From the IMG/VR virus record IMGVR_UViG_3300016457_000027, positions 1 through 47,516 of that record: DNA of 47,516 bases; one strand, 5' to 3'. The notes under the pieces were generated by a model, which saw only the letters and a list, made by a program, of their open reading frames with translations, ran no database searches and had not been told where the DNA came from. Below, piece after piece: positions 46,155 through 46,418 of the stretch. Position numbers and translations under genes: made by a program. The stretch comes from a virus. The stretch's first letter is position 1. Every line of letters starts with the position of its first letter.

Positions 46155-46287
46155 TATACTTTATACATTATAAGATATATAATATATAGTATTTAATATA
46201 CAATATACTTAATACATCATACAGTACACTGGCGCAGGGTGCTGGTTGTGAATAGAAGTACAACCACATTATAATTATCTAATATGC

Positions 46288-46314
46288 TAAAGTTTCTGGG
46301 ATAATATCCGATAA
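46288..46314 (+). promoter_or_regulatory. Sigma-28 (FliA)-type promoter, copy 1
   Basis: TAAAGTTT (46288-46295), exactly 11 bases, then TCCGATAA (46307-46314). The E. coli FliA consensus is TAAAGTTT-N11-GCCGATAA, so 15 of 16 conserved bases match. Followed by TATATATA. Points at the right-end plus-strand genes. A start near 46321 is expected. Confidence 0.75.
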
Positions 46315-46345
46315 GCTATATATAAGGAAACAGCAACCATTTACA

Positions 46346-46365
46346 CGGAGGTGACAATTATGTAA
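46346..46365 (+). promoter_or_regulatory. Start-stop unit: strong SD followed by ATG TAA
   Basis: GGAGGTGA (46348-46355) is a full-length SD, five bases before ATG at 46360, which is followed at once by TAA. It lies between the two sigma-28-type promoters, so it would be in the leader of transcripts from copy 1. Confidence 0.5.
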
Positions 46366-46391
46366 CAACTGAAAAAATTTCCAGTAAACGC

Positions 46392-46418
46392 TAAAGTTTT
46401 TCAAAATATATCCGATAG
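46392..46418 (+). promoter_or_regulatory. Sigma-28 (FliA)-type promoter, copy 2
   Basis: TAAAGTTT (46392-46399), 11 bases, TCCGATAG (46411-46418), followed by TATATATA as in copy 1. The two copies are 104 bp apart and otherwise differ in the spacer, so the matching boxes are conserved rather than a simple recent duplication. Reads into 46496-46846. Confidence 0.75.

Follow-up and report, generated by a model that had tools for sequence, protein, structure and literature searches.

On the usual view, phages begin infection chiefly with the housekeeping sigma factor of their host. The 47.5-kb contig of an uncultivated virus analysed here (the window, taken at its full length) raises the question of whether a phage might have its first early gene read by the flagellar sigma factor. 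The window carries a P22-like portal (Pfam PF16510), a large terminase (PHROG 2) and a primase; its late genes run leftward from ~44.5 kb and its early genes rightward. In the related locus L006 the genes are ordered in a way that points to the end of the contig being joined to its start. Two boxes that a first-pass annotation had read as near-consensus sigma-28 promoters lie upstream of gene 46496-46846, in the intergenic stretch (45.3-46.5 kb) from which late and early genes diverge.

Two sigma-28-type boxes before the first early gene

That reading agreed with the sequence in its particulars. Measured against TAAAGTTT-N11-GCCGATAA, the boxes match at 15/16 (P1, one mismatch) and 14/16 positions (P2, two mismatches) with exact spacing, lie 104 bp apart and are both followed directly by TATATATA (Table 1); the next-best matches in the window have three mismatches. 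The -35 motif, TAAA(GTTT), is complete in both boxes (8/8 each), GCCGATAA is matched at 7/8 positions in P1 and 6/8 in P2, and 11 nt separate the two 8-mers in each. The -10 elements of P1 and P2 open with T, whereas that of the sigma-28 consensus opens with G. Together with its flanks, P1 is an exact fit to an extended motif, CTAAAGTTT-N12-CCGATAAG, and a 38-nt repeat (46286-46323 and 46390-46427, 76% identical) spans the boxes and their flanks. Both boxes are on the strand of gene 46496-46846, 181 and 77 nt upstream of its start. No sigma-70 promoter of the form TTGACA-N16/18-TATAAT was found inside the boxes, the best such site (10/12) lying outside them at 46246-46275.

Table 1. Positions of promoters and neighbouring features in the window.
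Feature	Position	Strand	Details
AT-rich array, (A)ATATAC-like repeats	46013..46230	+	7/14-bp phase, immediately 5' of the promoters
Weaker sigma-70-like site	46246..46275	+	TTGTGA-N18-TATAAT; 10/12; 12 bp upstream of P1
P1, putative sigma-28-type promoter	46288..46314	+	-35 TAAAGTTT, N11 (CTGGGATAATA), -10 TCCGATAA
Shine-Dalgarno (SD) and immediate start-stop	46347..46366	+	GGAGG..ATGTAA; in the P1 leader, between both promoters
P2, putative sigma-28-type promoter	46392..46418	+	-35 TAAAGTTT, N11 (TTCAAAATATA), -10 TCCGATAG
Two adjacent hairpins	46431..46467	+	GGCGGA-CAA-TCCGCC and CTGGT..ACCAG; near the expected 5' end of the P2 transcript; z = -2.3
First early gene	46496..46846	+	116 aa; SD AAGGAGGG
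Strong intrinsic terminator	46854..46886	+	15 pairs, U-run; directly 3' of the first gene
Sigma-70 promoter	225..253	+	TTGACA-N17-TATAGT; near-consensus; upstream of gene 290, main early operon

When the pattern of the first-pass annotation was relaxed to three mismatches it was not significant, with 13 of 100 shuffles giving at least two matches; the claim therefore stands at zero to two mismatches and not looser, and was tested with an independent, non-circular matrix built from 22 strong E. coli FliA ChIP sites (Fitzgerald et al., PMC4203485). On this matrix P1 scored 17.0 bits and P2 15.8 bits, the two highest values for any position on either strand of the window, at about the level of true E. 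coli FliA sites (leave-one-out median, 16.9 bits). By itself, the top score is borderline for a 47-kb window (p ~0.045). Chance is rendered unlikely not by the single best score but by the pairing of two correctly oriented boxes in one intergenic region, 104 bp apart, for which we estimate a chance origin, roughly, at ~1e-5. A second matrix, from 71 phage sites, gave the boxes 31 and 25 bits and the next site 8.5, but was trained on matches to the window's own pattern and, being partly circular, was not relied on. With the two top ranks on the E. coli matrix and the occurrence of the motif class elsewhere (see below), the assignment of P1 and P2 as sigma-28-type promoters is well supported at the level of sequence.

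The boxes share the -35 element TAAAGTTT, the N11 spacer and a (G)CCGATAA-type -10 element with the class 3 flagellar promoters read by FliA/sigma-28 (SigD) in E. coli (Fitzgerald et al., 2014; PMC4183435/PMC4203485), but those sites precede motility genes, whereas the window boxes precede a phage early gene. The same consensus type is found in Bdellovibrio bacteriovorus, where FliA is the main attack-phase regulator, non-flagellar genes are placed under it, and FliA-type boxes (TTAAG-N16-CCGATA) occur at 66% of attack-phase promoters (PMC3627812). These, however, are promoters of a bacterial chromosome and not of a phage.

Because a terminator follows gene 46496-46846 and the main early operon has a sigma-70 promoter of its own, the boxes would command only a short first unit, which is predicted to be one gene, barring read-through or antitermination. 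The first-pass annotation assigned the boxes a phage operon, through which early expression would be linked to a flagellar regulon; their place upstream of an early gene is borne out, but the operon shrinks to a one-gene unit and the wider link to that regulon claims too much. The sigma-70-like site upstream of P1 is possibly a backup or relic promoter and could serve the gene as an alternative. The 116-aa product had no family match in Pfam, PHROG or NCBIfam, no homologue was found in a peptide-pattern search, and its predicted structure was of low confidence (mean pLDDT 67). A paralogue lies inside the window at 7365-7805, adjoining exonuclease and Sak4 annealing genes; both gene kinds are kept in the related loci L005 and L006. 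The place of the start-stop in the P1 leader is occupied by a short ORF in L171 and L006, and the AT-rich heptad array may be an origin or a ribbon-helix-helix operator array.

Elsewhere in the window, a ~30-bp element, yATAGTTYGGTCA-N5-TGACCGATsTTCTG, is present in ten copies (743, 4804, 5873, 15461, 23198, 32202, 38366, 39716, 45729 and 47314), mostly just upstream of gene starts and with GGTCA/TGACC arms perfect in all ten. It has the appearance of a dispersed operator for a regulator of the phage, and copies are found in relatives (three in the record of L002, one in L001, four in L129, six in L165 and three in L171). The window also encodes a single protein joining an N-terminal uracil-DNA-glycosylase (UDG) domain, a 3'-5' exonuclease and a family A DNA polymerase (13076-15457), and a DNA methyltransferase fused to a ParB-like N-terminal domain (10684-11997).

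Promoter class in related phages

Terminase searches yielded 53 viral loci and four genome-bin contigs as relatives. Looking for the boxes in related phages, a check proposed with the original claim, returned none in 59 related loci or 17 related virus records, and thus none among the relatives that cover the region; the contigs of the nearest relatives (L001, L002, L003 and L129) are without it. In three cellular bins the box pattern was no commoner than the reversed control and counts as background.

In L005, L006 and L171 the corresponding position encodes distant counterparts of the first early protein. Since identity is only ~20-30%, their homology rests on position as well as on sequence. 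Where the window has its boxes, these three loci have sigma-70 early promoters of the TTGACA-N17-TATAAT type and no sigma-28 boxes: TTGACA-N17-TAAGAT in L005, TTGACA-N17-TATGAT in L006 and TTGACA-N17-TACAAT in L171, where a terminator again follows the gene. The promoter class thus appears to have changed at the first early gene in the lineage of the window and, given the sigma-70 promoters that precede the counterpart gene in these relatives, this lineage probably gained duplicated sigma-28 promoters.

The motif in other phage genomes

A first scan of IMG/VR used the exact pattern TAAAGTTT-N11-TCCGATA. Among the matches listed, 30 of 121 sites were intergenic and 23 of those 30 preceded a same-strand gene; permuted motifs in the same loci were intergenic in ~7% and before a same-strand gene in ~2.5% of cases. 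The intergenic sites shared a longer motif, with C before and AG after, while coding matches lacked this extension. In IMG/VR, the extended motif CTAAAGTTT-N12-CCGATAAG was present in at least 120 stretches, compared with three across the entire collection for a reversed-letter control. Among the matches listed, 79 of 131 distinct sites were intergenic, with ~7% of bases being non-coding, and 68 of the 131 had a same-strand gene beginning no more than 200 nt downstream (median distance, 32 nt). Positions left open in the query showed G directly before CCGATA at 48% of sites, as in the flagellar consensus, a T/A-rich start region and a purine at the seventh base. A tandem arrangement, with two boxes 62-92 nt apart, was not found in IMG/VR.

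Downstream genes with a family match included those for RIIA, RIIB, Mom, Lar, antirestriction proteins, an integrase and an endonuclease VII. The downstream families are phage-type, and those listed (for PHROG, 25 of 45) comprise none for flagella or chemotaxis, which makes host contamination unlikely. Several contigs carry many sites and no reversed-control match: 18 in G021 (L012, L225-L226), 14 in G022 (L206-L211), 14 in G034 (L203-L205), 13 in G026 (L217-L224) and six in G035 (L212-L216). These five may represent a phage transcription program built on sigma-28; in G021 the majority of sites share a repeated TAAAGTTAGA form and could represent a repeat family. A cultured Bdellovibrio microvirus, phiMH2K (AF306496), has TCAAGTTT-N11-ACCGATAG (14/16) at 3345-3372, directly before the SD and ATG of an ORF and overlapping a short inverted repeat.

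In the literature searched, with many subscription papers outside it, no account was found of sigma-28 promoters serving phages as a general class of early promoter, so that novelty is provisional. The nearest precedent found was the FliA-dependent promoter of TldR loci, some of them prophage-carried, which serves flagellin regulation and not phage early transcription (PMC13418256). The remark of the first-pass annotation that few examples are described therefore fits the literature searched, but not the uncultivated phage contigs, in which the motif is common.

Probable use of the boxes by a host sigma factor

Given their match, spacing and place, both boxes probably act as promoters for host RNA polymerase carrying sigma-28 (FliA/SigD), which would transcribe the short first early unit soon after DNA entry. 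The host FliA holoenzyme would initiate at ~46321 and ~46425, the transcript would end at the terminator, and the 116-aa protein would be made at once after DNA entry, the remaining early genes being served by the sigma-70 promoter at 225-253. Having probably gained its sigma-28 promoters in duplicate, the lineage would benefit from a match to a host that has active FliA holoenzyme at the arrival of the phage. The host would then be a swimming cell; a Bdellovibrio-like predator, whose attack phase is run by FliA, is one possibility.

Other readings of the boxes were weighed against the same evidence. That a chance resemblance was copied by local duplication and has no function is very unlikely: the best E. 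coli-matrix score is borderline on its own and the two copies may be one event, because their flanks are shared, but an exact 17-base motif that outnumbers its reversed control so widely in IMG/VR argues against chance, as do the position and orientation of the boxes, which fit a promoter. An unlikely reading, though one with more in its favour, takes the boxes as operators, or other sites where a phage regulator binds, with a fortuitous likeness to sigma-28 promoters, the gene being transcribed from 46246-46275. A sigma-70-like site with an 18-nt spacer indeed lies just upstream of P1, and the phage has another dispersed element, GGTCA-N5-TGACC; the boxes, however, lack symmetry, agree with sigma-28 promoters in both elements and in spacing, and belong to a motif class common to unrelated phages in promoter-like position.

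Some large phages encode sigma-like factors, and a factor of this kind, not that of the host, might read the boxes. This is extremely improbable here, as a FliA-family match is absent from the window contig and no sigma factor was detected among the window proteins scanned, a set that leaves some small ORFs outside. Similarly, none of 20 motif-bearing contigs encodes an intact FliA-family protein, one of them (G033) having only a weak match broken by stop codons.

For host sigma-28 as the reader of the boxes, a narrower version holds that the phage infects Bdellovibrio-like predators and starts via the attack-phase FliA program in free-swimming cells. Such predators are a plausible host class, and the role of FliA in the Bdellovibrio attack phase (PMC3627812), the site in phiMH2K and the tail sheath of G026, which is nearest to that of Myxococcus phage Mx1, all point in this direction. 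The data on phiMH2K and G026 are suggestive of predator hosts for those phages and say nothing direct about the host of the window. In phi1402, another cultured Bdellovibrio phage, no site is convincing and none is of 14/16 quality, and contigs of the window's relatives were binned with unrelated taxa; in this specific form the reading is rather doubtful. The bins had been tried as a route to the host, but their taxa were inconsistent (Bacillota, Micrarchaeota, Erysipelotrichaceae and Woesebacteria) and, being unrelated, were uninformative. The nearest cultured phages for GroEL, capsid and rIIA gave remote matches or none.

Beyond the window, we tentatively suggest that use of the host flagellar sigma factor for early transcription could be a widespread, undescribed phage strategy, in which unrelated phages carry one to 18 predicted promoters, placed upstream of rIIA/rIIB, Mom, antirestriction and other genes, and do not encode the sigma factor themselves. 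A possible reason is that such phages encounter their hosts while FliA dominates, as in attack-phase predators. Infection by some phages may thus begin with the host's motility sigma factor. Were some phages to depend on it, the success of infection would be coupled to the motility or life-cycle state of the host, and non-motile mutants could resist a phage without loss of its receptor. The promoter class would then also offer a clue to the hosts of uncultivated phages, and the motif count in IMG/VR makes dependence on the flagellar sigma factor testable now.
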